From Deltaproteobacteria bacterium (GTDB lineage: Bacteria; Desulfobacterota; DSM-4660; Desulfatiglandales; HGW-15), in contig JAFGFM010000168.1 of NCBI GenBank assembly GCA_016931115.1, forward strand, positions 1 through 37,849: 37,849 nucleotides of DNA, read 5' to 3'. Position numbers and translations under genes: made by a program. Position 1 is the stretch's first letter. The number at the start of each line of letters is the position of its first letter. The notes under the pieces were generated by a model, which saw only the letters and a list, made by a program, of their open reading frames with translations, had not been told where the DNA came from and did not search any database. Of this stretch, positions 7,200 to 31,509 are shown in pieces.

Positions 7200-7216
7200 T
7201 TCTATAGTCTCCTTAT

Positions 7217-9852: not shown

Positions 9853-9932
9853 AAAACTACCTCTCTTTTATACTGAAACCTGTTCTTTATCGGTCAGCGC
9901 CTATCCTGAAACTGTCGTTTTTGAATTGTGTA

Positions 9933-14756: not shown

Positions 14757-14836
14757 GTTAAACTCCTTAAAATTCAAAGACTGACACTTGATATCCATAT
14801 CAATCGGATGCATCCTGATTGGTATGGGCGCTGTTT

Positions 14837-15200: not shown

Positions 15201-16289
15201 TTATCTGTAAATTATTCCCTTCATCTCTTCATCCGATACATCAACCCCGAGAAAGAGGCTGTAAAACTCCCTTGAATCCTTTATGATGTCTATCTTGTAT
15301 TCATCAGGGTAAAGCATATTTGTCAGCCACTTTAACCCCATGAGCCTCATAAAAGAGGGCGGGCGGTCAAACCAGTTGAAGGGCGTCCTTGGAATCAGAT
15401 AGACTTTCCCTTCTTTTACCGCCTTGACCTGTTGCCACGCCGAGTCTTTTTCCTTTACGACACTGTTATAAAATTCCCTGCTCTGGGCAATGATGAAGTC
15501 CGGGTTATACTTGTAGATATCTTCCATGGTCATCTTTTCAAACCCCATATGTCCTGATGTATGGCAGCGATGGATATTTGTATCACCGGTGTACTTGAGC
15601 ATTTCCACATGAATGGAGTCATCGCATTCCGTGCTGAGGCCATCATCCTTTTCCGCATAATAGACAGTTGGCCTTTTTTTCTGCGATGTTTTTTCAACAA
15701 CATTTTTAATATCAGTTAATGTCTTCCTGAAATAGTCACTCAGTTTTTTTGCCCGCTCCTCTCTTCCAAGGACATTTCCCAGAAAAAGATAGATCTCCGG
15801 GTAATCATTGAAGGTTTCAGCAACAGCATACACAACCGGGAGGTTCAGCTGATCCAGTGTCTCAGCCATCCTTCCCGGTTGTGTCGGGGAGGTTTTTTTA
15901 GTTGTCCACATAATTACAAGGTCAGGTTTTGCCGCATGAAGGCGTTCCAGGTTTGATTGTTTATCCTCACCGGACAATTTTCCAATATCAGGCAGATCGT
16001 GTACCGCCTTATTCAGGTATTGCTTGTCTGGACTGTTAAAACTTACAAGCATGGACGGGTCAATCGAATATACCAGGTATGAGCCATAGGCTGACGGCAC
16101 ATAAACCTTTTTAATTGAATCAGGTATGATTACTTTACGGCCTGCCATATCGACTATCTCGCGGGCTGATGCAATACCCATAGGAAAACTGAATAAAACA
16201 GTCAGCAGGAGAGAAATGATGAACAATACTAGCGACCATCCCCCTGCCCCTGATATTATATTTATTTGATTTGGGTATATTACCTTCAT
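15201..16289 (-). CDS. Periplasmic binding protein, FecB/BtuF type, paired with receptor 2
   Basis: 362 residues with a signal peptide (hydrophobic stretch about 20-37, cleavage near IASA) and no lipobox. The N-lobe has DMAGRKVIIPDSIKKVYVPS and AKPDLVIMW; the C-lobe has YYAEKDDGLSTE, an SIH motif and TPFNWFDRPPSFMRLMGLKW. It is closest to the PBP at 20615-21694 and more distant from the module A PBP. An in-frame ATG exists at 16307, but GGAGG lies nine nt before the ATG at 16289. It follows receptor 2 after 19 bp, so receptor and PBP form a two-gene unit. Its permease partner is presumably the one at 19608-20618, giving that transporter two alternative binding proteins. Confidence 0.85.
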   Translation of the reverse strand: MKVIYPNQINIISGAGGWSLVLFIISLLLTVLFSFPMGIASAREIVDMAGRKVIIPDSIKKVYVPSAYGSYLVYSIDPSMLVSFNSPDKQYLNKAVHDLPDIGKLSGEDKQSNLERLHAAKPDLVIMWTTKKTSPTQPGRMAETLDQLNLPVVYAVAETFNDYPEIYLFLGNVLGREERAKKLSDYFRKTLTDIKNVVEKTSQKKRPTVYYAEKDDGLSTECDDSIHVEMLKYTGDTNIHRCHTSGHMGFEKMTMEDIYKYNPDFIIAQSREFYNSVVKEKDSAWQQVKAVKEGKVYLIPRTPFNWFDRPPSFMRLMGLKWLTNMLYPDEYKIDIIKDSREFYSLFLGVDVSDEEMKGIIYR

Positions 16290-16308
16290 TGTGTGTTGCC
16301 TCCGCATT

Positions 16309-18381
16309 TTAATAAGATATAGAAGCTTTAATACCTACACTACGGCCCCTGTCTGTCCATGGCCCGAAGCCTGCTCTTTCCGTGGTCGCATATTTTTTAT
16401 TAGTGAGATTCTGCCCGAACAGGGTAATGCCCAGAAGAAGTTCTTTCCATCTGAAATCTCTCTGGATATTCGCATCTATCCGGGTGTATCCGCCGAGTTC
16501 TGTAGTATTACTCTCCGCGTCAAACCAGGAATCTATCTTCCTGACTGATACATTGGCCCTGTAATCTGCCCACCTGTGAGTAACAGATGCGGAGTAGAGA
16601 TTTTCCGGCTTGCTTATACCAAGCGAATCGGTTGTAACGCCGTCTCTTGTACTCTCATTATCAAGCATGTGTGTCCAGCTTATGTTATAGGAGGTGTTTG
16701 TGTTTTTAAGGATAGTTCCTTTGACCAACAGCTCAAGCCCTTTCCGATGATTGTCAGCCTCTGTGTAATAATAGTAGGTGCCGCCATCAAGCACATAGGT
16801 AGTTGAACTTGCAGATTTTGCGTTTTCAGCCTCTATATCAAAATATGAAAGCACAGGCTTCAGCCAGGCTGCATAGTCGGCAGAGACGGCAGCCTCAAAA
16901 CGATCCTGTTTCTCACGATGCGGGGTGGCATCACCCACAAGCCTCATGTCAAAATCCCCTGCGGTACCCTGTTCACCCCTGAAATAGCGACCATCCAGTG
17001 AGTAGATGCTTGAGATCTGCCAGTGACCGCCAAGGGCCAGGACCTTTGAAGGGGCCATGTCAACATTGTTGTTGGCGGCGCTGGCTGCTGCGCTGTTGCT
17101 GGAATTATCAATATGTTTAGTGTCCTGGCGATACCCTCCGTCAAAAACAAGGTTACCGTCCAGTAACGTATGCTCTATTGATGCTGACCAGCCCTTTACG
17201 CTTGTGTCATATTTATTGTAATTCGAGCTGGTATTTGGACCGAACCCATTGCTTTTGGATATCTGGCCACCCACCTGTACAAGGGTATTGCCAAAACGTG
17301 CATTATGTCTTAACCCTAAACCCTCGGTCTCTTCCTCATATGCACGGGAAGAACTGTTAGAATTAGCAAAACTCTCAACCATTTCGTGCTGATCATAATC
17401 CACCTTGAACAGATTCAGCAGGGTTATCTGGTTTGGAGTCCACTGCATGCCCATGTCTGTTGAAAGCATCTTTATCTTCAGGGAATCATAATACCACTTC
17501 ATATCAGATGTGCCCCTCTGCATCTCAAAGCTGCCTGAATCCTTGTATCCCATTACATTCATATTGAATTTCCCGGCCCTGAAACCGGTATTGACCATCC
17601 CGGCCTTCCCGCTCCTCCCGTCAAACCAGGAGTCAAGGCTTGGTTTATCCATCTTTGAGAGAAGTATGCCGACATACCCGCTGGCACCTGAGCTTTTCTC
17701 TCCCTTTGTTCCGGCATAAAGGCTTTCATTGTGTGCAGTCGGATGGCCGCCTGAATGTTTTTCAACAGAGCCTGAAAGTATTGCCTGTGTCTTTTGGGGC
17801 TGTTTTGTCCTGATGATAATAAAACCTGTATTAACACCGGAACCGGAGCTTGATGCGCCTATTGGCACAGAAGGGCCAAGCGTAAGTGATGTTGACCCAC
17901 GGACCACCTGCATCTCTTCAATGGCATCCACCGGTATCTTGTAAAGGATGCGGTTGACTGAAGGAGGCAGCACTGCCCCGTCTATAATATAGGTAAAGCT
18001 TCCGCCGCCGCGCTGAGAGTAAAAGAAGGGATTTCTGCGGCCCTGATAGGTAATGTTGAACCCGGAGGTATGTTCAAGAAGATCATTTATATCCGCAGGA
18101 TTAAGATTTTTGATATCCTCACTATTCAATATCTCGGTGCCGAACTGGGCGCTTTTCTCAATCCTGTAAATATTTGTAATACTGGAAGGGTCAAGGTCCT
18201 CCCTTAAGGAGATTGGTTTATCAACCACAGTCATCGGTTCTACCTGCTGGGCCTGCGTGGTCTGTTTCTTTGATGTTTTATCCTCTTTTGCCTCGTCATC
18301 ACCTGCCGCTGCATATGGCGCAAGGGCAAGAGCTGTTAATATCAAGCTGATGTTTACTAATTTCCCGTACCTAAATTTCAT
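16309..18381 (-). CDS. TonB-dependent outer-membrane receptor 2
   Basis: 690 residues with a signal peptide, a TonB-box-like EPMTVVDKP near 50-58, a plug domain (QGRRNPFFYSQRGGGSFTYI) and a barrel ending in IKASISY, again an aromatic terminus. GGGAGG eight nt before ATG fixes the start. From the signal peptide through the plug it is almost the same as receptor 1, pointing to recent duplication. Differences concentrate in the barrel, where extracellular loops choose the ligand, so the two probably take related but different complexes. It is transcribed from the conserved promoter at 18581-18650 with a leader of about 220 nt. Confidence 0.9.
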   Translation of the reverse strand: MKFRYGKLVNISLILTALALAPYAAAGDDEAKEDKTSKKQTTQAQQVEPMTVVDKPISLREDLDPSSITNIYRIEKSAQFGTEILNSEDIKNLNPADINDLLEHTSGFNITYQGRRNPFFYSQRGGGSFTYIIDGAVLPPSVNRILYKIPVDAIEEMQVVRGSTSLTLGPSVPIGASSSGSGVNTGFIIIRTKQPQKTQAILSGSVEKHSGGHPTAHNESLYAGTKGEKSSGASGYVGILLSKMDKPSLDSWFDGRSGKAGMVNTGFRAGKFNMNVMGYKDSGSFEMQRGTSDMKWYYDSLKIKMLSTDMGMQWTPNQITLLNLFKVDYDQHEMVESFANSNSSSRAYEEETEGLGLRHNARFGNTLVQVGGQISKSNGFGPNTSSNYNKYDTSVKGWSASIEHTLLDGNLVFDGGYRQDTKHIDNSSNSAAASAANNNVDMAPSKVLALGGHWQISSIYSLDGRYFRGEQGTAGDFDMRLVGDATPHREKQDRFEAAVSADYAAWLKPVLSYFDIEAENAKSASSTTYVLDGGTYYYYTEADNHRKGLELLVKGTILKNTNTSYNISWTHMLDNESTRDGVTTDSLGISKPENLYSASVTHRWADYRANVSVRKIDSWFDAESNTTELGGYTRIDANIQRDFRWKELLLGITLFGQNLTNKKYATTERAGFGPWTDRGRSVGIKASISY

Positions 18382-18792: not shown

Positions 18793-19605
18793 TCAAAATA
18801 CAACCGCCACTTTTTTATGATCATTGACTGGATGTAATTCCTCTGGAACACAGATCCGGCCTCCATCGTTCAACTCAATAACATCTACATGGGTATTGTA
18901 GGTATCATAGAGGCTGGCCCTGTTGATTACCTCCGTTGTCGGACCATCTCCAATAATTTTTCCTTCTTTTAACATGACCACCCTGTCCGATATCCATAGG
19001 GCATGATCAGGAAAATGTGTGGTCTTTATAAATGTATACCCGCTATCTGCAAGATCCGCTATGCAGGCAAGAAGACGAATCTGGTTACCATAATCAAGGC
19101 CATTTGCCGGTTCATCCATGATAAATATATCAGCACCCTGCGTCAGGGCGCGGGCAATCAACACCATCTGGCGCTCACCCCCGCTTATCTTTGTATATGG
19201 ACGCTCTTTTAGATGCAAAATGGAAAGCCGTTTCAGGGCATCAAGGGCGGCCTGTTCATCCTTATCAGTATACCTGAAGAAGAAAGGCTTGTGGGGTATT
19301 CTTCCCATCATTACAACATCCAGCACCCTGTATCCGAAAGAGAGTCGGTGACTCTGCGGCACATAGGCAATACGCCGGGCCAGTTGTTTGGGAGAAATTG
19401 ATAACACGGGATGACCTTCCAGGAGAACTCGCCCGCGCTGTGGCCTGTAGAGCCCCACAATAAGTTTTAACAGGGTTGTTTTACCGCTGCCGTTTGGGCC
19501 AAGCAAAGCTGTAATCATGCCAGGTTCAAAGGATACTGATATGTCCTGAAGAACCGGATTATGCGTATAGCAGTAGGTAAGATGTTCCACTGTAAAAAGG
19601 GCCAT
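18793..19605 (-). CDS. ABC transporter ATP-binding protein of module B, FecE type
   Basis: 270 residues with Walker A GPNGSGKTT, Q-loop YVPQSH, signature ISGGERQM, Walker B IFIMDEPANGLD and switch His in TTHFPDHA. An ATG 12 bases upstream (19617) overlaps the permease stop but has its AAAGGA too close; I use 19605, with moderate certainty. The C-terminal ~35 residues after VINRASLYDTY extend beyond the core and have no match I can name. It is the last gene of the long module B unit and works with the permease immediately upstream. Confidence 0.9.
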   Translation of the reverse strand: MALFTVEHLTYCYTHNPVLQDISVSFEPGMITALLGPNGSGKTTLLKLIVGLYRPQRGRVLLEGHPVLSISPKQLARRIAYVPQSHRLSFGYRVLDVVMMGRIPHKPFFFRYTDKDEQAALDALKRLSILHLKERPYTKISGGERQMVLIARALTQGADIFIMDEPANGLDYGNQIRLLACIADLADSGYTFIKTTHFPDHALWISDRVVMLKEGKIIGDGPTTEVINRASLYDTYNTHVDVIELNDGGRICVPEELHPVNDHKKVAVVF

Positions 19606-19607
19606 AA

Positions 19608-20618
19608 TCAGTTCCATCCTTTCTTTGCCCTATGCAGCAAAAAAGCGAAAAAGGGTATTCCTATCAGTGAGGTGATGATGCCGATAGGTATCTCCACGCT
19701 GAATAATAAACGGGCCATGTCATCTGCGATCAGCAAGTAGATTGCCCCTACTAGCGCGGATACAGGCAGCAGGATGCGATTATCCGGACCAACAATCATC
19801 CGCGCCACATGGGGGATCAAAAGCCCGACCCATCCAATCATCCCGCCCAGTACCACAGTGAATGCGCTTATTATAGTAGCCAGAAGGATAAAACATGATC
19901 GCAGGAAGAGAACATTTACCCCCAGAGACCTGGCCTCTTCATCTCCCATACTCAAAACATTAAGGTAACCTGAAAGAAAAAGCAGGATAAAAATACCTAC
20001 AGCTATTGGTCCGCACAGGAAGAAGACTGTTGCATTGTCCACCGCTGAAATACTGCCCATAAGCCAGTATACAATGGCCGGTAACTGATCATAGGGGTCG
20101 GCAAGATATTTGATCACCGAGAGCAGTGAAGTAAATAATGCGCTGCTTATGATGCCGCCCAGGATCAGCATCAGAAGCCTGTCGTTCTTGTTGAGCATCG
20201 ATAGCCCTAATGCGGCGGCCACAGCAATCAGCCCGAATATAAAGGCGCCCACCTGAACCATAATCCAGCTTTTTGCCAGAGTCATTCCAAGGGCCGCCCC
20301 AAAGGAAGCGCCAGCAAGGACACCCAGAAGTCCCGGTGAAACCAGTGGATTAATAAACATGGACTGAAAGGTGGCTCCCGAAACCGAGAGGGCAGCACCT
20401 ATCAGGATGGCCGCAATTATCCTCGGTAATCGGATATTGATCAGGATATTTTTTAATATATCGTATTGTTGCGGATCATTAAATGGCCTTTGCCCAAATA
20501 TATGCTGTTTAATAAAATAGACCAGGTCTCTGGCACTCACAGGGTATTTCCCCATACACATGGATATCAGGACAGTGAGCCCTAAAACAATAATAAGGAT
20601 AAATATCGACTTTTTCAT
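19608..20618 (-). CDS. FecCD/BtuC-family permease of module B
   Basis: 336 residues with about nine to ten membrane segments. Landmarks are RLPRIIAAILIGAALSVSG, NPLVSPGLLGVLAGASFG, the coupling loop MGDEEARSLGVN, and GWVGLLIPHVARM. The start overlaps the PBP stop by ATGA (20615-20618), and its own stop is followed by the ATPase start within a few bases, so PBP, permease and ATPase are one coupled set. Unlike the module A permease it has no basic N-terminal extension. Confidence 0.9.
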   Translation of the reverse strand: MKKSIFILIIVLGLTVLISMCMGKYPVSARDLVYFIKQHIFGQRPFNDPQQYDILKNILINIRLPRIIAAILIGAALSVSGATFQSMFINPLVSPGLLGVLAGASFGAALGMTLAKSWIMVQVGAFIFGLIAVAAALGLSMLNKNDRLLMLILGGIISSALFTSLLSVIKYLADPYDQLPAIVYWLMGSISAVDNATVFFLCGPIAVGIFILLFLSGYLNVLSMGDEEARSLGVNVLFLRSCFILLATIISAFTVVLGGMIGWVGLLIPHVARMIVGPDNRILLPVSALVGAIYLLIADDMARLLFSVEIPIGIITSLIGIPFFAFLLHRAKKGWN

Positions 20619-21694
20619 TGCTGTAATATTTCTCTGGTAGATGCCTCATCAAGGGTCACATTGAGAAAAAGTTTATAAAAGCGCCTGGCCTCTGCATTCA
20701 TGTCAATGGTGTATGCATCAGGATATAACTGATTTGTCATCCATTTCAGGCCCAGAAGACGCATGAAGGATGGTGGCCGGTCAAACCAGTTGAATGGCGC
20801 GGTCGGAATCCTGTAAACATGGCCATCCCTGACCGCCCGGATGTTTCTCCATCTCACATCCTTTTTTATGCTGCTCAGGAACATAGAATCGTGGGAAACG
20901 ATTACATGGGGATCATAATTAATGACCTGCTCCATTGATATCTTCTGCATGCCATAGAGGGTGGCGCTGTTACACTGGTGAACATTTGCGCCTCCACTCA
21001 GGGGGATCAACTGGGCATGCACGGATGTATCGCATTCTGTGCTGAGGCCGTCGACCCCTTCCGCATAATAGACCGACACCCTCTCTTTATTTTGAATGGC
21101 TCCGGATGCCTTCTTTGTCTCTATTAATGTCTGCTCTGCATAAATGGCAAGGGCCTCTGCGCGTTCCTTACGGTTAAGCAGATCCCCCAGAAAGCGAAAG
21201 GCATGCGGATATTCGGTTAATGAATCCATCGCAATATAGACAACAGGTATGCCCAGAGTCTTTAACTTCTGCTCCAGCTTTTCATTAGAGGCAGAGAGCT
21301 GTTTCCACATCCAAACCAGTATTATATCGGGCTTTATCTTTAACAGGACTTCAAAATCAGGCATGGCCCCCTGTCCCTGCTGCCCACCTACTACTGGCAA
21401 TTGGTGTATACGCGCATCCATATATTGTTTTTCAGGTGATCTTAAACTGGCATTGAGCCCGGCAATCATGCCCGGATCAATGGCGTAAATCATATAAGTG
21501 GCAGGAGGGGATGAGCCAAAAACCTTGTTGATTACATCAGGCACAACAACATGGCGTCCTGCCATATCAATTATTTCTCGTGCCGATGCAGTCCTGCCCG
21601 GAAGATATAATATGAGTAAGAAAAGAAATATCTGTAAAAGAGATATTACAACCTTTTTTAACACTTTATTTTCGCATCTCAATCCATGTAGCAT
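20615..21694 (-). CDS. Periplasmic binding protein of module B, FecB/BtuF type
   Basis: 359 residues with a signal peptide (hydrophobic stretch about 16-33, cleavage near TASA). The N-lobe has DMAGRHVVVPDVINKV and KPDIILVW; the C-lobe has YYAEGVDGLSTE, an SVH motif and APFNWFDRPPSFMRLLGLKW. The gene starts inside the preceding methyltransferase. GAGG six nt before the ATG at 21694 is the best ribosome site, though a GTG at 21664 just after the methyltransferase stop would give a more ordinary signal peptide. It is followed by its permease with an ATGA overlap. Confidence 0.85.
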   Translation of the reverse strand: MLHGLRCENKVLKKVVISLLQIFLFLLILYLPGRTASAREIIDMAGRHVVVPDVINKVFGSSPPATYMIYAIDPGMIAGLNASLRSPEKQYMDARIHQLPVVGGQQGQGAMPDFEVLLKIKPDIILVWMWKQLSASNEKLEQKLKTLGIPVVYIAMDSLTEYPHAFRFLGDLLNRKERAEALAIYAEQTLIETKKASGAIQNKERVSVYYAEGVDGLSTECDTSVHAQLIPLSGGANVHQCNSATLYGMQKISMEQVINYDPHVIVSHDSMFLSSIKKDVRWRNIRAVRDGHVYRIPTAPFNWFDRPPSFMRLLGLKWMTNQLYPDAYTIDMNAEARRFYKLFLNVTLDEASTREILQQ

Positions 21695-22265
21695 CTTCAC
21701 CCTCTACATCTGATATTGTTTGACATCCACATAAGCCTGTTTTATCCAGTAATTCCTGAAGTCCTGCCCCGCTTAAGAAGTTGGCCTTTTGATTTTTATT
21801 CTTCGCTGCCCTGCGGCCCTTTCCTTTTAGCCTCATATGCATATTTGGAGGCGTATAGCGGCCAAGACCCCCACCGGTAAATGCAATGCCTCCGGGTTTT
21901 AAGACCCGAAAAATGTCTCGGAGCCCTTTTATCTGATCTACCCAGAACCAGAGAGACCCACGGCTTATGATTAACTCGGCAAAATTATCCTCAAAAGGGA
22001 GGGCGCTCACATCGGCCTCGGTAAAATGGACAATATTATCCAGGTGAAGCCCTGAGATATTTTGTTCTGCCTTTTTTAAATTATCCTTATTAATATCCAC
22101 AAAATATATCTCCAGATTGGTGATCTTTGCGAGTTCAATACCCATATAACCCGGCCCTGTACCTATATCGAGGCATATTCCTCTTTCTATTTGATAATCA
22201 TCCAGTATCTGTTGGGCTATGAGTGGATATACTGGCAGCAGTTCCGAATATCCGTCAACTAACAT
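21666..22265 (-). CDS. Class I SAM-dependent methyltransferase (paralogue 3)
   Basis: 199 residues. Motif I is CLDIGTGPGYMGIELAK, motif II ends in YFVDIN, then LIISRGSLWFW and VLKPGGIAFTGGGLG. A basic patch RLKGKGRRAAKNKNQKA lies near 145-161. AAAGGAG seven nt before ATG supports the start. It shares the DxGxGxGYxG and SRGSxxFW signatures with the methyltransferases at 7217 and 26550. It overlaps the downstream PBP gene and is preceded by an intercistronic structure, so it may have its own translational control. Its substrate is unknown; context points to the imported compound. Confidence 0.85.
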   Translation of the reverse strand: MLVDGYSELLPVYPLIAQQILDDYQIERGICLDIGTGPGYMGIELAKITNLEIYFVDINKDNLKKAEQNISGLHLDNIVHFTEADVSALPFEDNFAELIISRGSLWFWVDQIKGLRDIFRVLKPGGIAFTGGGLGRYTPPNMHMRLKGKGRRAAKNKNQKANFLSGAGLQELLDKTGLCGCQTISDVEGEDATWIEMRK

Positions 22266-22361: not shown

Positions 22362-23252
22362 TTAATGCCTTCCTTTAACTGCCTTCATAAAAGATTCCCA
22401 TCCGTCCCAGCGCAAGGGGCATCTGTTTTCAGTCAGGAGAGAAGGCATGGGAACCTTATCTGATACGGGTACAAAGCTCTGCATGGACAGAAATTCCTGC
22501 ACCTTTTTGGACATGAGAAAGTCGCCAACCTCAAACAGCGACTCAGGTGCCTTTTTACCCCATACCATTACCTGGGGCATACAGAACAACCCCTCTTTCG
22601 GCCAGATAATGCGGGTATTTTTCTCACGGGAGATTCGGGCAAATGCTATATTGGTTATGCCCAGCGGGAAATTTCCTTCATCCACAGCAGTGACAACCTC
22701 CATAGGGTTTCCTCTGTGGATGAAGTTTGTTTTAAAATTACAAAATTTATCCGGGAAGTCTGCCTTTATAAATGCCTTTGTGACCACGGACACAATACGG
22801 AATTCATCCGGTATGAGGACCTTTCCGGCCCACTGCGGGTCCAGCAGCTCTTCCCACGATCCGGGGATTTCATTTTCTCCCAGCATATTCCGGTTGTAAA
22901 AAACAGCAAAAGGTATGATCCCAAAGGGATGGAAATAGCCCCTTGTGTCCGTAAAACCTTTATCTGAAAGCTCCCTTCTTACGGGGAAACGGCCCGGAAG
23001 TGATTGGAACCGCTCAGCGATATACTCGTGGGTGAAGTCAGCAAAATCATCTACATGGCCGACTATCAGATCAGGAAGGTCATCATTTTCCACATATGTT
23101 TTAAGCAGGCTTTTTTCATCTGCACGATGTGGCTGTGTCTCTACCTGTATGTCAATACCGTTCTTTTCGTGTAATTTTCCGCAGAATTCTTCCATCATCT
23201 GCACTATAGCCCTGCTGATATTAAGCGGACAGTGTAATAAAATTTTTGCCAT
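22362..23252 (-). CDS. Substrate-binding protein (type 2 PBP fold) without signal peptide
   Basis: 296 residues from the ATG at 23252, chosen because AAGGAG lies ten nt upstream; a longer frame to 23339 lacks such a site and overlaps the ABC gene more. The start MAKILLHCPLNIS has no signal peptide or membrane segment, so the protein should stay in the cytoplasm. The rest looks like iron-type type 2 PBPs: FGIIPFAVFYNRNML, SWEELLDPQWAGKVLIPDE, AVDEGNFPLGITNIAFA and FLMSKKVQEFLS. The gene overlaps the soluble ABC ATPase by 32 bases. There is no cognate permease of the usual type here. It may sense or carry the substrate inside the cell. Confidence 0.75.
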   Translation of the reverse strand: MAKILLHCPLNISRAIVQMMEEFCGKLHEKNGIDIQVETQPHRADEKSLLKTYVENDDLPDLIVGHVDDFADFTHEYIAERFQSLPGRFPVRRELSDKGFTDTRGYFHPFGIIPFAVFYNRNMLGENEIPGSWEELLDPQWAGKVLIPDEFRIVSVVTKAFIKADFPDKFCNFKTNFIHRGNPMEVVTAVDEGNFPLGITNIAFARISREKNTRIIWPKEGLFCMPQVMVWGKKAPESLFEVGDFLMSKKVQEFLSMQSFVPVSDKVPMPSLLTENRCPLRWDGWESFMKAVKGRH

Positions 23253-24036
23253 TTGAAATAATCTCCTTAAGAATATTATGATGTTTAATGCTTTCGCCTC
23301 TTCTGATATAGTCACGAAGACGTGAGATATCCTTTTCAAAGGCGACCAGTTGCTTCATGATATCTTTTTCAGCAGGTGTAGTTTGCTGGAGCCTGTACAT
23401 CCCCCCGTTCTTCATAATCACCCTCTGGTCGGACATTAACATCAGCGCAGGGTCGTGAGTTACTAACAGCACTATTTTACCCTGACCCTTGAGTATCTCC
23501 ATTGCCCTGAGGCGATCGATACCTGCATTTTCGATTTCATCTATCAGCACCACAGGCGCATTGCTGATCAATGCAACATCTCCCACCATAAGGGCGCGTG
23601 CCTGGCCACCGCTAAGCATTGTCAGATTATCTGCAGGATACACCGGCTCTCCGGCCAGTTCGTTTGTCACCCTGAGAACTTCGGCTATTTTCTTTTCAGG
23701 GGTTTCAATGGAGCGGACCTTTGCGTGCCTGGATAAAAATTTTTCAACCGATGAATCCATTACAAAATTCATCTTCTGTGACACTTCTGCTACAAGCCCC
23801 CTGGATATCCCGTCTCTGGTATATTCCTCCACAGTAAGATCGTTTATCAGGATTTCCCGGCCTGTGGGTGTTTCTCCGTCTGCATATTGCTCTATATCCG
23901 ATATAAGCTGGGTTTTACCCGAACCCGTAGGGCCTGCAACTGCAAGCACCTCTCCGGCGTTGATATCCAGACGGTTAATCGATTCTTTTCGCCTATCTTT
24001 ATCCAGCCCGCCAAGGACGCTGATCTTTTTCAACAT
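23221..24036 (-). CDS. Soluble ABC-type ATPase, not a standard transporter subunit
   Basis: 271 residues from the ATG at 24036 (AAAGG seven nt upstream), overlapping the GTPase end by seven bases. Walker A GPTGSGKT (35-42), signature LSGGQARAL, Walker B VVLIDEIENAG and switch His VTHDP are intact. Walker B reads DEIENAG instead of DEPTxGLD, and a hydrophilic, probably helical C-terminal segment follows (EKDISRLRDYIRRGESIKHH). No membrane partner is encoded next to it; neighbours are a GTPase and a signal-less PBP, both cytosolic. A role as a molecular motor or maturation factor, rather than import, is inferred. Confidence 0.8.
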   Translation of the reverse strand: MLKKISVLGGLDKDRRKESINRLDINAGEVLAVAGPTGSGKTQLISDIEQYADGETPTGREILINDLTVEEYTRDGISRGLVAEVSQKMNFVMDSSVEKFLSRHAKVRSIETPEKKIAEVLRVTNELAGEPVYPADNLTMLSGGQARALMVGDVALISNAPVVLIDEIENAGIDRLRAMEILKGQGKIVLLVTHDPALMLMSDQRVIMKNGGMYRLQQTTPAEKDIMKQLVAFEKDISRLRDYIRRGESIKHHNILKEIISNGKNFITLSA

Positions 24037-24731
24037 ACCTCTGCCTTTCCGAAATCTATCTTTTTGACATTGCCCATCTGGTAAGGGCTGCCGACAATTG
24101 TCTCTCCCGCACAGTAAGAACATATTGCCGCGGGCATCGGGTACCTGAGCGCTGTGCCACTGATTTTTTCAAGAGGGCTGTGATTAAGGATTTCATTCCT
24201 GAGACGCAGAGAGCCCCTTCCGTTAAGCCCGTTTATGTCTATGACCCTGGCATCAGGATTAAGCATCGTGACCTGATGCCTGAATACTTCCCTCTCTGCC
24301 TGTGAAACAATATCTCCCTTTGTGATAGCAACAATGTCGGCGGTACTCAGCATGGGGCCTATTTTTTTAGGGGTATCAATACCTACAAGGTAGTCGATAA
24401 CGCATATGGTAAGACAACCATTAACTGCAGGCGCGCAACGGTGACATAATCCGGCCGTTTCAAGGATGACGACGCCAGCCTTTTGTTGTTCTGCCCACGA
24501 CCATATCTCTTCCAGATTAGCGACATAAAAATGGTCCGGGCATATATAGTCGCTCAAACCAACTGCAACCGGTATCCCAAGACGGCGATAACGCTCATCA
24601 TCCCCTGTCTCCAGACAGTCGATCTTGCACGCTGCGACCCGGATACCATCATTTTGGAGATGCCGGATTGTGTGCAGCATTGCTGATGTCTTGCCTGATG
24701 ACGGCGTACCTGCTACTATAATAAACCTCAT
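24030..24731 (-). CDS. G3E-type P-loop GTPase (HypB/UreG/CobW-like)
   Basis: 233 residues. Walker A is GTPSSGKT (8-15); a Cys-containing metal/switch region KIDCLETGDDERYRRLGIP follows; the ETAGLCHRCAP segment (91-101) matches the G3E ExxG site with two extra Cys; TKGD (137-140) takes the place of NKxD; CSYC (204-207) is near the C-terminus. G3E GTPases insert or deliver metals (Ni in HypB and UreG, Zn in COG0523 proteins, support of cobalamin enzymes). Here four or more Cys could bind a metal or cluster. The ribosome site AGGAG is 13 nt upstream, a little far. It lies between the radical SAM fusion and the soluble ABC ATPase. Confidence 0.8.
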   Translation of the reverse strand: MRFIIVAGTPSSGKTSAMLHTIRHLQNDGIRVAACKIDCLETGDDERYRRLGIPVAVGLSDYICPDHFYVANLEEIWSWAEQQKAGVVILETAGLCHRCAPAVNGCLTICVIDYLVGIDTPKKIGPMLSTADIVAITKGDIVSQAEREVFRHQVTMLNPDARVIDINGLNGRGSLRLRNEILNHSPLEKISGTALRYPMPAAICSYCAGETIVGSPYQMGNVKKIDFGKAEVC

Positions 24732-24754: not shown

Positions 24755-26548
24755 TTATTCCTGCCAGCGCCAGTTATTATCAGGTTTACTGAAGGAAAGG
24801 TTTATATCCTTTGGATCAAAGGTTAGTCCGTAAAAATCCCCATAAAAGGTCTTAGCCTCTTCCATTACATCAAATTGACATTCATCAGGGTGTAGTACTG
24901 ATGCGATATACATGAGGCCGAGTATCCAGCGCGGGGTGCCGAAGTCCCAGCCTGGGGCAGGGTGCTTGTAAATCCGCATATTCCTGACCGCCTCAACCTC
25001 TATTCCCTGTTCAATGCATTCAGAGTAAAAATCTCCCACAGAATTAGATATAAAGGCGGAAATAAACATCACTTCAGGATTAAGCCTGTTAAGCTCCTGA
25101 ACTGTGATGGTGGCGCCAGGCCGTCCACCCGGAGGGATATCCCTGTTTACACTATAGCCCCCTGCTGTTTCAACAAGCTGGTTTTCAAGACGGCCACCAT
25201 TTATATAAAACAGGGGTTTTGTCATGGCATAATATGTGCAGGGCCTCACTGGAATAGTATTAACCATAGCCTCAATACGATTCAGTCGCTCTTCAAGATA
25301 TCCTGCCAGCCTCTCTGCCTGTTCATGCACACCCGCTTTTTTTCCAAAATGGCGGAGTGTATCAATATATTTATGCGGATTCTGTATGTTGATATGAAGC
25401 CTTTTAAGCCCGTCGTTTTGAAGTATCTCTTCCCAGGCTGATATGACTGTTGCCTTTGATTTTACACCCATTGCAATAAGCATCGCTTCAACTATTTCCA
25501 TTGCCCTGGTAAGCGGGTACCCCCCCTCAAAGTCACCTTCTTTAAATGATGTAAAAGAAGATGGCCCTACTATTTTCAGGTGATGAGAACAGGAGGGGCA
25601 TGCAGCGTGATCATCCTCTTGCAGATTAATTGGCAGCTTTACCCTTGCTCCCATTGGGCCATAGAAATCACGGTGTATAAAAGGGTGGTTGCACTGCGGG
25701 CATATGGTATGAAGATAGGCGCTTCCTGGTGTATTGAACAAGTAAACATAATCAAGCACACTTCTGACCTTTTCACAGAAGGCCTCTGCCTCACGGACAG
25801 TTGGTTCAAGAGAGATATCCGCTCCTTCAAATGGCAGAAAACGCATGATCTGAAAGGGTATATCCTTTGAGATACCGGAGATATACTCTGCCAGTTCCAT
25901 TACCTCCTGTTGATTTTTTTTTGTGAGGATAGATGAAACCTCGATATGCACACCGCCATTATAGAGCATATTCATGTTTCTCAATACCGGCGATATAAAG
26001 GGCGCTCCGCATGCTATGTAAGCCTCGTCGGAAAAACCCTTCATCCCGATATTGATGAAATCAAGAAAAGGAATCAGCCTGCTAAGAGCATCTGAGGTGA
26101 AATAGGCATTGGATGAACAACCTGTCTTGAGCCCCTCTTTATGGGCGATTTCTGCTGTTTTTAAAAAACCCGGAAAGGCAACAATGGGGTCATTCATTAA
26201 AAACACAATGCCTTCACACCCTGCTTCAATGGCCTTTGATACGATTTGCCTTGGCGTCAGATGTGTAAGGGCCTTGCTCTCAGGCGACATCTCACGGACA
26301 AGCACTGTGGAAATACATCCAGGACAATTGAAATTGCATCCTGTGGTGGTTATCTGTAAAAATTTTCCCTTTGGCCGGAAATGGAGTATGGGCATTGTCT
26401 CTATGGATATGGGACATGCAACCAGGTACTGATCCGGGTATTTCTCCTGCAATGTATTATTAATAAGAACATAACGTCCACACCTGCCGGTTTGTCCTTC
26501 AGAAATCCTGCATCTCAGTTCGCATATATCACAGTTCATGTAATCCAT
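24755..26548 (-). CDS. Radical SAM enzyme fused to a FecB/BtuF-like binding domain
   Basis: 597 residues. The N-terminus CDICELRCRISEGQTGRCGRY (C6, C9, C13, C23) and the radical SAM motif CNFNCPGC (C71, C75, C78) match AmrS/PFL-activase-like enzymes. A zinc-ribbon pair follows (CPQC 283-286, CPSC 317-320). The region from about 365 to 575 resembles the backbone helix and C-lobe of the PBPs in this window: YIDTLRHFG, QAERLAGYLEERL, ETAGGYSV, LNPEVMFIS and APGWDFGTPRWILGLMYIAS (compare PFNWFDRPPSFMRLLGLKW). No signal peptide is present, so a transporter-type binding domain is joined to a cytosolic radical enzyme. It starts one base after the methyltransferase stop, with AGGA upstream. Inference: it binds the imported compound and modifies it. 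Confidence 0.85.
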   Translation of the reverse strand: MDYMNCDICELRCRISEGQTGRCGRYVLINNTLQEKYPDQYLVACPISIETMPILHFRPKGKFLQITTTGCNFNCPGCISTVLVREMSPESKALTHLTPRQIVSKAIEAGCEGIVFLMNDPIVAFPGFLKTAEIAHKEGLKTGCSSNAYFTSDALSRLIPFLDFINIGMKGFSDEAYIACGAPFISPVLRNMNMLYNGGVHIEVSSILTKKNQQEVMELAEYISGISKDIPFQIMRFLPFEGADISLEPTVREAEAFCEKVRSVLDYVYLFNTPGSAYLHTICPQCNHPFIHRDFYGPMGARVKLPINLQEDDHAACPSCSHHLKIVGPSSFTSFKEGDFEGGYPLTRAMEIVEAMLIAMGVKSKATVISAWEEILQNDGLKRLHINIQNPHKYIDTLRHFGKKAGVHEQAERLAGYLEERLNRIEAMVNTIPVRPCTYYAMTKPLFYINGGRLENQLVETAGGYSVNRDIPPGGRPGATITVQELNRLNPEVMFISAFISNSVGDFYSECIEQGIEVEAVRNMRIYKHPAPGWDFGTPRWILGLMYIASVLHPDECQFDVMEEAKTFYGDFYGLTFDPKDINLSFSKPDNNWRWQE

Positions 26549-26549
26549 T

Positions 26550-27176
26550 TTATTTCCTCATCACTATCCAGAGCCCGATATCTTCATTATGCAAAATAGA
26601 ATAGGAATTTATGCCTGCGGTTTTGAGGGCTGTTTCAAAACGTTCACGGGTTTCAGGGCTCATGTTGCGGCGCATAAGATCTCCGAACTGCCCATTGGAA
26701 TTTTCATTGGACATCATTTTGCCTTTAATGGATTCCTTTAATTCACGGTTGCCGAATCCTCCGCCTATATAGGACCACCCGCCCGGCGCAAGTATACGGT
26801 ATATCTCCCGGAATGCCTGCGGCAGGTCTTCCCAGAAAAAGACAGAACCGCGGCTTACTGCCAGGTTAATACTGTTGTCAGGGAGGGCGATTGATGATAC
26901 ATCCCCGGTTATTGTCGCAGACCTCCCCTGTATGTTATTTTCCTGAATCGTTTGTTTAACTATCTCAATCATGTCAGGCGACTGATCAAGAAAGTGCATA
27001 TATAATTGAGTGGCCTTTGCAAGGGCTGCCCCCAGATAGCCGCTGCCACAACCGATATCCAGGCATGTGCCGCTTGTTATACCGGTTCTGGCAATGATCT
27101 GGCCTGCTATGATCGGATAAATTGGTTTAAAAATATTGCGGGCAATTGAGTCAAATTCTTTAGCCTTTTTTTCCAT
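26550..27176 (-). CDS. Class I SAM-dependent methyltransferase (paralogue 4)
   Basis: 208 residues. Motif I is CLDIGCGSGYLGAALAK, motif II ends in HFLDQS, then LAVSRGSVFFW and ILAPGGWSYIGGGFG. AAGGA six nt before ATG supports the start. It is closest to the methyltransferase at 7217 (shared ITSGxCxDxG and FLDQS..M) and related to that at 21666. It is the first gene of the long module B unit, behind the conserved promoter block and a leader of about 185 nt, and is followed without a gap by the radical SAM fusion. Confidence 0.85.
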   Translation of the reverse strand: MEKKAKEFDSIARNIFKPIYPIIAGQIIARTGITSGTCLDIGCGSGYLGAALAKATQLYMHFLDQSPDMIEIVKQTIQENNIQGRSATITGDVSSIALPDNSINLAVSRGSVFFWEDLPQAFREIYRILAPGGWSYIGGGFGNRELKESIKGKMMSNENSNGQFGDLMRRNMSPETRERFETALKTAGINSYSILHNEDIGLWIVMRK

Positions 27177-27564: not shown

Positions 27565-28677
27565 TCAGTTTATAATTTTACCCATGGATGAGCCATCATA
27601 GCCGGGGATGGCATCTATCTCTTTTCTTAAAACCTGTGATTGCAGGGCATTGGTAAGGATCTTTATTGTGGGGTGGTTCATCATATCATCAGGGATAACA
27701 AGGTCGCAGCGGACAGAGATAATTGGGACAAAACCCAGGTCATATGAATCAGCAACAGCCCTGAGACCCAGAGCAGCGTCCACTACGTTACAGGCCACCT
27801 TGCTTGCGCCATCCCGGTGTGATGTCACCTCATTCTGGTAGCCGTTTATAGCAGTGCCAGGTATCCCTGCCTTTTTTAATTCATCATCAAGCAGAACCCT
27901 TAAGGCCGCCCCCTGCTCCCGGTTTACAAACCGCACCATAGGTTGAGCCAGGTCAGCCACATTGCGGATACCAAGAGGGTTGTTCCTTGCCACGATCAGC
28001 CCCTCCTCCATAAAGGAAAATCCAAAGATATGGCATTTCATTGCCCCCAGTTTCTCATTGGTAATGGCCACATTGGCCTCAGCATCACCTGTATTATGCA
28101 GATGAGTACCCGCAACATGGGCATTGCCCTCTGCCAGGCCGTTTAAAGAGGCATGGCTTGATGCAAACAGGCAGTGGACACGAAAGTCAGGCGCTATGCG
28201 CGATATATGATTGGCCAGGATCTCAAAGGCAGGATCGCACCCCATAAGTATTATTGAATTGTTAAGCAGGTGTTCAGGGAGGAATATCTGTGTCTTTTCA
28301 CCGGCATTATCCAGCAGGCCATCAGCCGCTTTCAGGCCGAAGGATGTTGCCCTTGCGCCCTTGAGCGGGATACCAACCAGGCGGTCACGAACCTTTGCAA
28401 GAGAGAGCCGGGTTGAAGGGGTGTTATCACCGTTTATTACATGCACCGGCTGGGCATCCACTGGTTCATCCAGTATAAAAAGGTCTTCAACACGACACCC
28501 GAATAAGCGGGCGAGCTGAAGGGCAATGGCTGTATTTGGAAGGTAACGCCCTGATTCAATATCATAGATGGCCTGACGTTTTATGCCTATTATCTTTGCC
28601 AGCTCTTCCTGTGAGAGCTTCTTTTTAACCCGGTACTGCCTGAGGTTGCAAATAATCGTATTACCCTGCTGAGTCAT
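27565..28677 (-). CDS. XRE-type HTH regulator with C-terminal substrate-binding-like domain
   Basis: 370 residues. An N-terminal helix-turn-helix (about 10-62) reads KKLSQEELAKIIGIKRQAIY then IESGRYLP. From about 115 a PBP-like domain follows: IILMGCDPAFEILANHI, LNGLAEGNAHVAGTHL, EEGLIVARNNPLGI, RFVNREQGAALRVLLDDEL and VACNVVDAALGLRAVA. This C-terminal type also occurs fused to MoeA-like proteins and recalls ModA. GGGAG seven nt before ATG supports the start. It is divergent from modABC, so it probably controls molybdate or tungstate uptake in response to an oxyanion or cofactor (inference). A palindrome in its own leader is a candidate operator. Confidence 0.8.
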   Translation of the reverse strand: MTQQGNTIICNLRQYRVKKKLSQEELAKIIGIKRQAIYDIESGRYLPNTAIALQLARLFGCRVEDLFILDEPVDAQPVHVINGDNTPSTRLSLAKVRDRLVGIPLKGARATSFGLKAADGLLDNAGEKTQIFLPEHLLNNSIILMGCDPAFEILANHISRIAPDFRVHCLFASSHASLNGLAEGNAHVAGTHLHNTGDAEANVAITNEKLGAMKCHIFGFSFMEEGLIVARNNPLGIRNVADLAQPMVRFVNREQGAALRVLLDDELKKAGIPGTAINGYQNEVTSHRDGASKVACNVVDAALGLRAVADSYDLGFVPIISVRCDLVIPDDMMNHPTIKILTNALQSQVLRKEIDAIPGYDGSSMGKIIN

Positions 28678-28708: not shown

Positions 28709-28899
28709 GGAAAATAGTTAAGTTATTGGATTCCTTTATCTGTTTTGATTGCACGTGCCAGTATAAAATGTAATTGACAGTTAAATAATACAATTGTAGT
28801 TTCCTTATCAGGAATCATATGTTCTCAAAAAGAATTGGTCAAATAAATAATGCTGTACAAAAGATAGCATATAGAAGAGGCAGGAAAAAGGAGCAAAAT

Positions 28900-29697
28900 A
28901 TGGGCTATAAAAATAAAATGATTTTTCTTATTATCATCTGGTGTCTGCTGATTTGGCTTGTTGGTATCTCTCCAGTATCCTTTGCGGCACAGTGTGAGCA
29001 AAAGGTAACTGTATTTGCTGCTGCCTCAACAACCAATGCCATGACTGATGTGGGAGACCTGTTTGAAAATCATAAAATGGGAAAGGCCATTTTATCATTT
29101 GCATCAGCCTCAACTCTGGCAAAACAGATTGAACAGGGGGCGCCCGCTGATATATTTGTTTCTGCAAATTCAGAGTGGATGGATTATCTTGAATCAAGAA
29201 AACTGCTCGAACCTGGCACCAGGTTTGATTTTTTAAAAAATATCCTGATGCTCATTGCGCCGGTAACGAGCCCTATAGACCATATTGATTTGGTGAAAGG
29301 CCAGGATCTTGGAAAATATCTGGGTGATGGTCTTCTTTCTACAGGTGATCCGGATCATGTCCCGATAGGTAAATATGCTAAGGAGGCACTTATAAACTTA
29401 AGCATGTGGCAGGGCATTGAAAACAAGATAGCCAGGGCAAAGGATGTGCGCGCCGGTCTGGCCCTGGTGGAACGAGGCGAGGCGCCACTTGGTATAGTTT
29501 ACGCCTCTGATGTAAAAATATCAGACAAGGTAAAGGTTGTAGGGGTCTTCCCTGAGGAGAGTCATAAACCAATAACCTTTTCAGTAGCCATTATAGCAGG
29601 CAAAAAAAGCGCGGCAGCACTTGAATTCCTAGAGATGCTTAAAACTCCTGAGGCAAAGAATATTTTTACAAAATATGGTTTTATCGTAAACAAATAA
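28900..29697 (+). CDS. modA: Molybdate/tungstate ABC transporter periplasmic binding protein ModA
   Basis: 265 residues from the ATG at 28900, fixed by AAAAAGGAG seven nt upstream; a longer frame to 28819 lacks a comparable site. A signal peptide (about 8-27, cleavage after SFA) precedes the mature start QCEQKVTVFAAASTTNAM. SFASASTLAKQIEQGAPADI and VSANSEWMDYLE are the oxyanion-binding landmarks of ModA. Further on are GDPDHVPIGKYAKE and VERGEAPLGIVYASDV. Whether it prefers molybdate or tungstate cannot be told. First gene of a modABC operon. Confidence 0.92.
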   Translation: MGYKNKMIFLIIIWCLLIWLVGISPVSFAAQCEQKVTVFAAASTTNAMTDVGDLFENHKMGKAILSFASASTLAKQIEQGAPADIFVSANSEWMDYLESRKLLEPGTRFDFLKNILMLIAPVTSPIDHIDLVKGQDLGKYLGDGLLSTGDPDHVPIGKYAKEALINLSMWQGIENKIARAKDVRAGLALVERGEAPLGIVYASDVKISDKVKVVGVFPEESHKPITFSVAIIAGKKSAAALEFLEMLKTPEAKNIFTKYGFIVNK

Positions 29698-29718
29698 AAT
29701 TAAGTTTTACAGGTCATC

Positions 29719-30417
29719 ATGGCTTTTTTAAGTTTAACACCACTGGAACTGGAGGCCATCCGGTTAAGCCTGCTTGTTTCATTGTGGGCAGTAGCCGGTG
29801 GTCTACCATTTGGTATTGCTGTAGCATGGCTTCTATCACGCCATAATTTTCCGGGCAAACCCATTGTGGATGGCATTATTCATCTGCCGCTGGTTCTCCC
29901 TCCTGTGGTCATCGGGTATCTCCTTTTAATCCTGCTGGGGCGAAGGGGCGTAATAGGGGCATGGCTTTATGAATACTTAGGCATCACTATCGCCTTTACA
30001 TGGAAGGGCGCCGCAATAGCCGCTTCTTTAATGGCCTTTCCGCTCATGGTAAGGGCAATTCGCATTTCCATTGAGAATGTTGACAGGGGTCTTGAACAGG
30101 CTGCCCACACTCTGGGTGCCGGGCCTATAAGGGTTTTTTTTACAATCACCCTGCCATTGATTATACCCGGCATCATAACAGGCTTAATACTTTCTTTTGC
30201 GAGGAGCCTTGGGGAGTTTGGCGCCACCATTACCTTTGTGTCAAATATAAAGGGTGAGACGCAGACCCTTCCCCTGGCCCTTTATACCATGACACAAGTT
30301 CCAGGGGGTGAGATACCTGCGCTTCGTCTCTGCATTATATCTGTAATTATTGCCATGGCCGCCCTGATGGTTTCCGAGTTCCTGACCCGACATTTTTCAG
30401 GCCGTATCAGGGGTTAG
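29719..30417 (+). CDS. modB: Molybdate ABC transporter permease ModB
   Basis: 232 residues, about five to six membrane segments. The ATPase-coupling EAA loop reads EQAAHTLGAGPIRVFFTITL near residues 120-140, and FARSLGEFGATI is the typical ModB end of the loop region. It starts 22 bp after modA with a weak ribosome site and is followed three bases later by modC. Confidence 0.92.
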   Translation: MAFLSLTPLELEAIRLSLLVSLWAVAGGLPFGIAVAWLLSRHNFPGKPIVDGIIHLPLVLPPVVIGYLLLILLGRRGVIGAWLYEYLGITIAFTWKGAAIAASLMAFPLMVRAIRISIENVDRGLEQAAHTLGAGPIRVFFTITLPLIIPGIITGLILSFARSLGEFGATITFVSNIKGETQTLPLALYTMTQVPGGEIPALRLCIISVIIAMAALMVSEFLTRHFSGRIRG

Positions 30418-30420
30418 CAT

Positions 30421-31509
30421 ATGATTGATCTGAATATAAAAAAAAGAAATGGCCAGTTTCAGATTAATACGACGTTCGCATTCAGGCAGGCGGGTGTTAC
30501 AGCTATTATCGGTGAGTCAGGTGCAGGCAAGACCTCAATAATAAATATGGTGGCAGGACTTATGCGCCCTGATGATGGTCATATTATAATAAACGGGCGC
30601 ACCCTGTTTGATTCTGAGACCGGCTGTAATATCTCCCCGGAAAAAAGGCATATAGGTTATATCTTCCAGGATGGCAGGCTCTTTCCGCACCTTTCCGTGA
30701 GGCACAATCTGTTTTACGGGATGAACCTTATCCCCGGGCATGACCGCTTTATTACTGTTGACCAGGTTGTTGACCTGCTGGGTATAGGTCACCTGCTTAA
30801 ACGAATGCCATCAAACCTTTCCGGTGGAGAAAAGCAGCGGGTCGCCATAGGCAGGGCGCTTTTGACAAGCCCGCAATTTCTTCTGATGGATGAACCTCTT
30901 GCCTCACTTGATGAGGCGCGCAAATCCGATGTACTGCCCTTTATCGGTAAACTTACGAGCGAGTTTAAAATACCTATCCTTTATGTGAGCCACTCCCTGA
31001 ATGAGGTGCTCAATCTGGCAGATACTGTTGTTATACTCAAGGCAGGGAGTGTGATCGCCTATGGTGACGCAGATGAGGTCTTAAGCCGGCCTGATATGCA
31101 GCAGTTCCTGGGCACCTCAAATTATGGTGCAGTTATTCCCACTGTGGTGAAGGGGCAGAGCCATAATCTTACCACCCTTCATTTTCACGGGGGTGAACTC
31201 CATGTGCCTTCTCTGAACCTGGAAAAAGGGGCAAAGGTAGTGGTACTGATCAAGGCAAGGAATGTGGCCATATCCCTTGACCGGCCATTAAATACAAGCT
31301 TTCAGAATATCCTGCCAGCGCGGATCGATGCAATCATCGAAAGAGATGAGATGATGGTTGATATACGCCTTGATATAGGCTGCATGATAATAGCAAGGAT
31401 AACCTGTGCAGCAAGAGAATCCCTCGGGCTTAAGCCGGGACAGCAGGTTTTCGCATTGATAAAAGGTGTTGCTGTTTCAACTGGAAACCTCTCCATTGAA
31501 GATGAGTAA
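30421..31509 (+). CDS. modC: Molybdate ABC transporter ATPase ModC
   Basis: 362 residues. Walker A GESGAGKTS, signature LSGGEKQR, Walker B FLLMDEPLASLD and switch His in VSHSLNE are intact. The C-terminal ~70 residues (from about 290) form the TOBE domain expected of ModC, with ILPARIDAI and CAARESLGLKPGQQVFALIK. It begins three bases after modB, so the operon is tight. A promoter-hairpin element and strong bidirectional terminator follow. Confidence 0.92.
   Translation: MIDLNIKKRNGQFQINTTFAFRQAGVTAIIGESGAGKTSIINMVAGLMRPDDGHIIINGRTLFDSETGCNISPEKRHIGYIFQDGRLFPHLSVRHNLFYGMNLIPGHDRFITVDQVVDLLGIGHLLKRMPSNLSGGEKQRVAIGRALLTSPQFLLMDEPLASLDEARKSDVLPFIGKLTSEFKIPILYVSHSLNEVLNLADTVVILKAGSVIAYGDADEVLSRPDMQQFLGTSNYGAVIPTVVKGQSHNLTTLHFHGGELHVPSLNLEKGAKVVVLIKARNVAISLDRPLNTSFQNILPARIDAIIERDEMMVDIRLDIGCMIIARITCAARESLGLKPGQQVFALIKGVAVSTGNLSIEDE

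Follow-up and report, generated by a model that had tools for sequence, protein, structure and literature searches.

A single gene of the window (the whole stretch of 37,849 nucleotides analysed here), at positions 24755..26548 of the reverse strand, encodes a protein in which a radical SAM enzyme is joined to one half of a transport receptor. The 597-residue product ends in a half-clamshell, made of the backbone helix and C-lobe of a class III binding protein (about residues 376-580), from which the N-lobe is absent. Very probably the fusion is part of molybdenum and tungsten (Mo/W) acquisition, and the occurrence of a radical enzyme with half a receptor lobe among Mo/W uptake genes suggests intracellular chemical processing of an imported metal complex. 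The parts are of known kinds, and their combination is new relative to the searchable literature: neither the fusion architecture, which the first-pass annotation of this DNA had taken to be undescribed, nor an anaerobic molybdophore was found described in the open-licence literature.

Chelators of Mo and W are mainly known from aerobic nitrogen fixers, and the supply of both metals to strict anaerobes in sulphidic settings is poorly understood. The gene set described below, consisting of TonB/FecBCD, methyltransferase and radical SAM genes and headed by Moco/Tuco riboswitches in several genomes, points to an uncharacterised metal carrier, implied in sulphate reducers, acetogens, syntrophs and methanogens. 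The fusion also shows one half of a transport receptor put to new use, presumably to hold the substrate of an enzyme. The fused lobe also offers a handle for fishing out the ligand, and the substrate is directly testable.

The radical SAM half

Residues 1-330 (25559..26548, reverse strand) comprise a four-cysteine N-terminal motif (C6, C9, C13, C23) and a radical SAM barrel. A CxxxCxxC motif follows at residues 71-78 (26315..26338, reverse strand), and its cysteines C71, C75 and C78 are expected to ligate the radical SAM [4Fe-4S] cluster. All seven cysteines, which the first-pass annotation had read as AmrS-like N-terminal cysteines and CxxxCxxC, are present and invariant in the 44 family members; zinc-ribbon-like cysteines (C283/C286/C317/C320) also occur in this half of the window protein. 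Pfam detected Radical_SAM in the window protein at 1e-14 and PF04055 in 44 of 44 members, and residues 36-270 superposed on pyruvate formate-lyase activase with Z 19.1 (VIA-align), NifB being matched with Z 16. By its cysteines and partial TIM barrel the protein is assigned to the radical SAM superfamily, and cleavage of SAM is predicted. No signal peptide was recognised, in agreement with the earlier reading: the top hydropathy within the first 45 residues was 0.2, compared with at least 2.5 in most receptors, and the protein is predicted to be cytosolic.

The C-terminal half of a binding protein

Searching solved structures with phmmer returned class III binding proteins only, all matching the C-terminal part of the window protein (4hn9, 7e-11; 4ovk, 3e-10; 4pag, 1e-8; also a Helicobacter nickel receptor), and Peripla_BP_2 of Pfam was detected in 34 of the 44 fusion homologues. 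In a profile comparison, residues 376-597 matched the C-terminal half of 40 receptors from the operons (probability 99.9, E 9e-36); between residues 272-404 and the receptor N-lobe the same method found no similarity (P 0.2). An AlphaFold model based on 44 aligned homologues (mean pLDDT 90.5, pTM 0.91), which replaced an earlier one built on five sequences (pLDDT 71), has helices only at residues 345-429, followed by a complete alpha/beta C-lobe, and no beta strand at residues 304-436. The best structure was again 4hn9, on which residues 349-578 superposed with Z 21.0 and rmsd 2.6 over 220 residues (VIA-align); MolA (3psa, Z 18.2), BtuF (Z about 15) and haem receptors were also resembled. Residues 337-404 (25337..25540, reverse strand), which occupy the position of the receptor N-lobe, are all-helical and contain an invariant GGYPxTRA motif (conservation 0.77 over residues 340-360), and the backbone helix and class III C-lobe occupy residues 405-580 (24809..25336, reverse strand) by profile comparison and predicted structure.

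The backbone helix and receptor-type C-lobe claimed in the first-pass annotation are therefore supported by phmmer, Pfam, profile comparison and the predicted structure alike, and the structure prediction and fold search proposed there did find a class III lobe. The same annotation spoke of a transport-type binding domain that captures the imported compound again inside the cell; a complete binding protein at this position is ruled out by profile comparison and by the model, and since the N-lobe is missing the fused domain cannot be one that closes in this way. What stands is a transport-derived binding lobe on a cytosolic radical SAM enzyme, as indicated by fold, homology, the missing signal peptide and the retention of the lobe in all intact close homologues.

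The lobe is strongly constrained: its conservation (mean 0.67) equals that of the radical SAM core (0.66), with peaks in the loops at residues 441-456 (0.75), 495-507 (0.73) and 530-545 (0.87), the last being its most conserved part and containing the GWDFGTPRW loop (residues 533-541; 24926..24952, reverse strand). By comparison, only three columns are invariant among the free-standing receptors encoded in the same operons. The fused lobe consequently probably has a specific job common to the family. The loop APGWDFGTPRW had been read as standing in place of PFNWFDRPP of the window receptors; it is present, but is nearer to the 4hn9-type motif AWDSPVPG..LG..YIASVLHP, and the ligand-face loops of the fused lobe are unlike those of the window and operon receptors, so that recapture of the same compound by the lobe, as suggested in the first-pass annotation, is a conjecture, as is the release or insertion of a metal proposed there. 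Several viperin-type alignments extend into the lobe up to residues 475-479, a hint from the model that this part may lie close to the barrel opening.

One family in bacteria and archaea

A first scan with the single window protein as query gave no match; an alignment of the lobe, used for a profile scan of 84,980 species genomes, detected 54 loci in Thermodesulfobacteriota, Bacillota, Synergistota, one Treponema MAG, and Methanomicrobiales or related archaea. The radical SAM half lay in the same open reading frame at every intact locus, the exceptions being contig ends, frameshifts and stops, and with 44 full-length members from bacteria and archaea we rejected a chance or mis-assembled fusion. 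Likewise, every intact homologue keeps the C-terminal domain. Within the phylum of the window, the fusion was present in 6 of 297 sampled genomes.

In a tree of radical SAM halves the fused proteins formed one clade with respect to AmrS-type relatives (support 100/99), within which archaeal and bacterial members are largely separate, and by this sequence evidence the fusion arose once. Desulfosporosinus BRH_c37 has a second, shorter copy without the lobe, which we interpret from the sequences as a late loss. At L045:12973-13974, 3' of a Moco riboswitch, a radical SAM half of 333 amino acids without the lobe nests beside the fused copy in the tree.

The nearest unfused relatives, which are long-branched, have FecBCD genes adjoining them in L128 and a FecB gene close by in L129, so that the link with transporters may be older than the fusion. 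At L128:5964-11059 the order is FecB-FecC-FecE, then the unfused relative and a 386-amino-acid protein without a Pfam match; L127 holds the same pair without importer genes. A separate observation concerns L030:15640-18030, where the fusion gene is interrupted in frame by a TAG in place of a conserved Gln codon and the adjoining methyltransferase gene contains TGA codons, representing either decay or an assembly error.

Gene neighbourhood in the window

The genes listed here lie on the reverse strand unless stated otherwise. One bp upstream of the fusion gene is its most constant partner, a class I SAM methyltransferase gene (26550..27176), and 388 bp further upstream a regulator with HTH_3 and PBP_like (PF12727) domains (27565..28677), whose homologue in L052 lies between the fusion and methyltransferase genes. 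Divergent from this operon are ModA, ModB and ModC (28819..31509, forward strand); ModA (294.8 bits, cut-off 253) and ModC (421 bits, cut-off 285) pass their NCBIfam cut-offs, and ModB was assigned by homology.

Downstream, after 23 bp, comes a GTPase of the CobW/HypB/UreG type (24030..24731), then an ABC-type ATPase without a permease partner (23221..24123) and an SBP_bac_6 binding protein without a signal peptide (22362..23339, probable ATG start near 23252). This set at 22362-24731, found also in L048 and L069, is apparently, from sequence, a second case of transport modules used inside the cell; the L069 homologue of the SBP_bac_6 protein begins MASILLHCPL and likewise has no signal peptide.

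Farther on lie a class I methyltransferase of the same group as the first (21666..22265, by domain scan), a FecB-type receptor with the PFNWFDRPP motif (20615..21700; 4pag, 4e-76; MolA 3psa, 3e-12), a FecC/BtuC-type permease (19608..20618), a FecE-type ATPase (18793..19617), a TonB-dependent receptor (16309..18381), a FecB-type receptor identified by sequence comparison (15201..16307), a second TonB-dependent receptor (12663..14813) and a second FecC/FecE/FecB set (8773..11842, with genes at 10715-11842, 9933-10718 and 8773-9852). The permease, the FecE-type ATPase, both TonB-dependent receptors and the second set were recognised by sequence and have homologues at other loci. A Band-7/stomatin-like protein (11839-12597) adjoins the FecC1-FecE1 genes, an order repeated in L043 and L070. 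The series ends with a DUF4213/DUF364 'heavy-metal chelation' protein (6282..7238) and, by domain scan, an FmdE-family protein (5696..6268) and TonB (4950..5648).

Gene neighbourhood across loci

We compared 42 non-redundant fusion loci with 40 control stretches of 20 kb, a rough background because all controls came from genomes of the window's phylum. Methyltransferases of this group were encoded at 34 of 42 loci, receptors at 27, FecC-type proteins at 24 and DUF364 at 12, each against 0 of 40 controls, and the suggested co-occurrence of the fusion with FecCD operons thus held on inspection. ModA, a PBP_like regulator or MoeA, taken together, occurred at 13 of 42 loci and 0 of 40 controls (p 6e-5). 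Enrichment of FmdE (4 of 42) and TonB receptors (5 of 42) was weak at the thresholds used; Pfam identified 9 of 114 neighbour proteins as TonB receptors. A ModA-type gene directly follows the fusion in L064 and the methyltransferase in L042, and L081 has a WtpC-like gene beside the fusion that scores slightly below its cut-off (433 bits, cut-off 440).

Other neighbours were confined to single loci. At L046:5197-8906 (Desulfosporosinus fructosivorans), NifD/NifK/NifH-like genes lie between methyltransferase and fusion, beside a second nif set; a nitrogenase link as general explanation was dropped, such genes being present at this locus only. At L070:11758-14348, in a Methanomicrobiales genome, three tandem CooC/NifH-like ATPases are encoded beside the fusion.

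Riboswitches and the identity of the metal

Rfam detected Mo/W riboswitches (RF01055) in L039, L041 (three), L045, L049, L055 (two), L061 (two) and L064, and together with Moco-II RNAs such elements occur somewhere in 8 loci. In six of them (L039, L041, L049, L056, L061, L064) the RNA heads a same-strand gene run that holds the fusion. In L061 the RNA is followed by FecC, FecE, PBP, radical SAM, PBP, fusion and methyltransferase genes; in L064 by PBP, methyltransferase, fusion and ModA-type genes; in L041 by DUF364, TonB receptor, methyltransferase and fusion genes; in L039 by TonB receptor, methyltransferase and fusion genes; and in L049 by a radical SAM gene and the fusion. The L056 run consists of Moco-II, methyltransferase, TonB receptor, FecBCD, FmdE, a further methyltransferase and the fusion. 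The Moco-II RNAs at its head are in tandem (L056:1333-1452), an arrangement that may widen the known Moco-II gene set.

All 3 RF01055 sites of the L041 genome (3.1 Mb) fall within the 21-kb fusion locus, and 2 of 3 sites of the L061 genome are in its fusion locus. In the seven genomes that have such an RNA at the fusion locus, these loci make up about 0.45% of the sequence and contain 11 of 47 sites, a figure that overstates the association because these genomes were chosen for having a site there. RF01055 RNAs without stem P3 are of the tungsten-cofactor type (PMC2408646); P3 is missing from the L039 and L041 RNAs and present in those of L049 and L064, which by this sequence criterion would be of the tungsten-cofactor type and the molybdenum type, respectively. 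The window had no Rfam match at E 0.5 and its genome no RF01055, and the link with Mo in the window consequently rests on ModABC and the regulator. Together, riboswitches and neighbouring genes directly support a role of these operons in Mo/W supply; they narrow the metal to Mo or W, neither of which had been named in the first-pass annotation.

Proposed role and alternatives

Our leading reading, held tentatively, is that the fusion is a cytosolic radical SAM enzyme of Mo/W acquisition in anaerobes which dismantles an imported chelator on its half-lobe. The C-lobe of a class III protein, minus the N-lobe, is joined to the radical SAM unit and would dock on it, in a geometry that we infer, and its conserved loops would position the organic ligand that carries Mo or W at the barrel mouth. 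A composite pocket shared by barrel and lobe would replace the two-lobed clamshell, and in it a 5'-deoxyadenosyl radical would modify the ligand jointly with the methyltransferase encoded 1 bp upstream. Most likely, a chelator taken up via the TonB receptor and the FecBCD importer would be dismantled or remodelled. Mo or W would thereby be freed for cofactor assembly, a possible parallel to the anaerobic opening of haem by HutW/ChuW.

The strongest competitor, which we regard as unlikely, is that the enzyme builds: methyltransferase and fusion would produce a small chelator of Mo/W out of a common metabolite, or bring it to its mature form, with the lobe holding product or intermediate, and DUF364 and FmdE proteins may take part. 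The methanogen loci L072 and L074 have only methyltransferase and fusion genes within 10 kb; this minimal unit runs counter to the dismantling reading, as no importer lies nearby, and at such loci synthesis fits equally well. DUF364, a proposed maker of flavin-, pterin- or siderophore-like chelators (PMC2954201), accompanies the fusion as counted above, and repression by Moco is equally compatible with chelator synthesis. However, neither NRPS or NIS synthetases nor other backbone-assembly families were among the 25 commonest of 119 Pfam families in the 114 neighbour proteins, a set in which biosynthetic genes of rarer families may have been passed over, and exporter genes did not emerge as a constant partner. 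With importers and TonB receptors as partners and no backbone-assembly genes standing out, we modestly favour dismantling of an imported carrier over synthesis.

It is improbable that the fusion acts in late Moco/Tuco assembly or metal insertion, with the lobe holding molybdate, tungstate or pterin, the radical SAM unit modifying the cofactor and the GTPase serving as metal chaperone. Moco-type riboswitches and MoeA genes at several loci would fit, as would the HypB/CobW-type GTPase and cytosolic SBP that adjoin the fusion, but GTPase and soluble ABC ATPase genes recur at only 2 of 42 other loci (L048, L069), the constant partners are importer genes and the methyltransferase, and a general assembly step would hardly be expected in as few as 6 of the 297 genomes sampled from the phylum.

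Slightly less probable still is a ligand that carries iron, cobalt or nickel or is a tetrapyrrole, with the Mo genes incidental. In its favour, Fe and B12 ligands are the usual cargo of FecBCD and TonB systems, the fused lobe is also like BtuF and haem receptors and a cobalamin biosynthesis operon adjoins the fusion in L030. The cobalamin riboswitch there, however, follows the fusion gene and precedes that operon, and scans of the other loci yielded no RNA of the cobalamin, NiCo or iron type, whereas Moco-type RNAs recur and head gene runs. Cobalamin itself, suggested by the L030 operon and by the BtuF-like best match within the window's own genome (in a B12 salvage locus on contig C143), was set aside as the principal reading, since the riboswitches point to Mo/W.

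More broadly, and tentatively, anaerobic bacteria and archaea may share an undescribed chelator-based Mo/W economy in which a radical SAM enzyme has acquired one lobe of the importer's receptor, lobe and radical barrel forming one pocket that chemically unlocks or builds the carrier under Moco/Tuco riboswitch control.

Comparison with known systems

The nearest NCBIfam family is that of the AmmeMemoRadiSam enzyme (TIGR04337, AmrS), with which the fusion has in common the C-x2-C-x3-C-x9-C and CxxxCxxC motifs and the domain order over residues 4-324. The window protein reaches 112.7 bits against a cut-off of 220, falls in a separate clade and adds the C-terminal lobe; as it misses the cut-off, classing it as an AmmeMemoRadiSam member is not warranted. 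Neither AMMECR1 nor Memo was detected in the ten window neighbours that were scanned or in the 25 most frequent families of the neighbour set.

With class III binding proteins of the FecB/BtuF/MolA type it has in common the backbone helix and C-lobe (E 9e-36; Z 21.0 to 4hn9, 18.2 to MolA 3psa). Unlike them, it has no N-lobe and no signal peptide, would be cytosolic, is fused to an enzyme and has other ligand loops. Since the second lobe and an export signal are both missing, it should not be classed as a substrate-binding protein either. MolABC, the molybdate/tungstate importer of Haemophilus, is a FecBCD-type importer for group 6 metals whose MolA structurally matches the fused lobe; we know of no radical SAM partner of this system.

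An association of DUF364 proteins (Dhaf4260, 3l5o) with genes for the transport of Mo, W, V and Fe has been described (PMC2954201), and the fusion loci, 12 of 42 of which encode DUF364, join these neighbourhoods to a radical SAM fusion not mentioned in that paper. HutW/ChuW/HmuW are anaerobic haem-degrading radical SAM methyltransferases encoded with TonB- and ABC-type haem uptake genes (PMC10035031, PMC10404700). No HutW/ChuW family was listed with the 14 NCBIfam families matched at E up to 1, in a library that may hold no HutW model. As far as its profile matches show, the fusion would belong to another radical SAM family, and it differs further in its Mo/W rather than haem context and in its fused binding lobe. 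What the two would have in common is the idea of opening an imported chelate in the cytosol, the activity of the fusion being predicted; by analogy only, the fusion would work most like a haem-opening radical SAM enzyme behind an importer.
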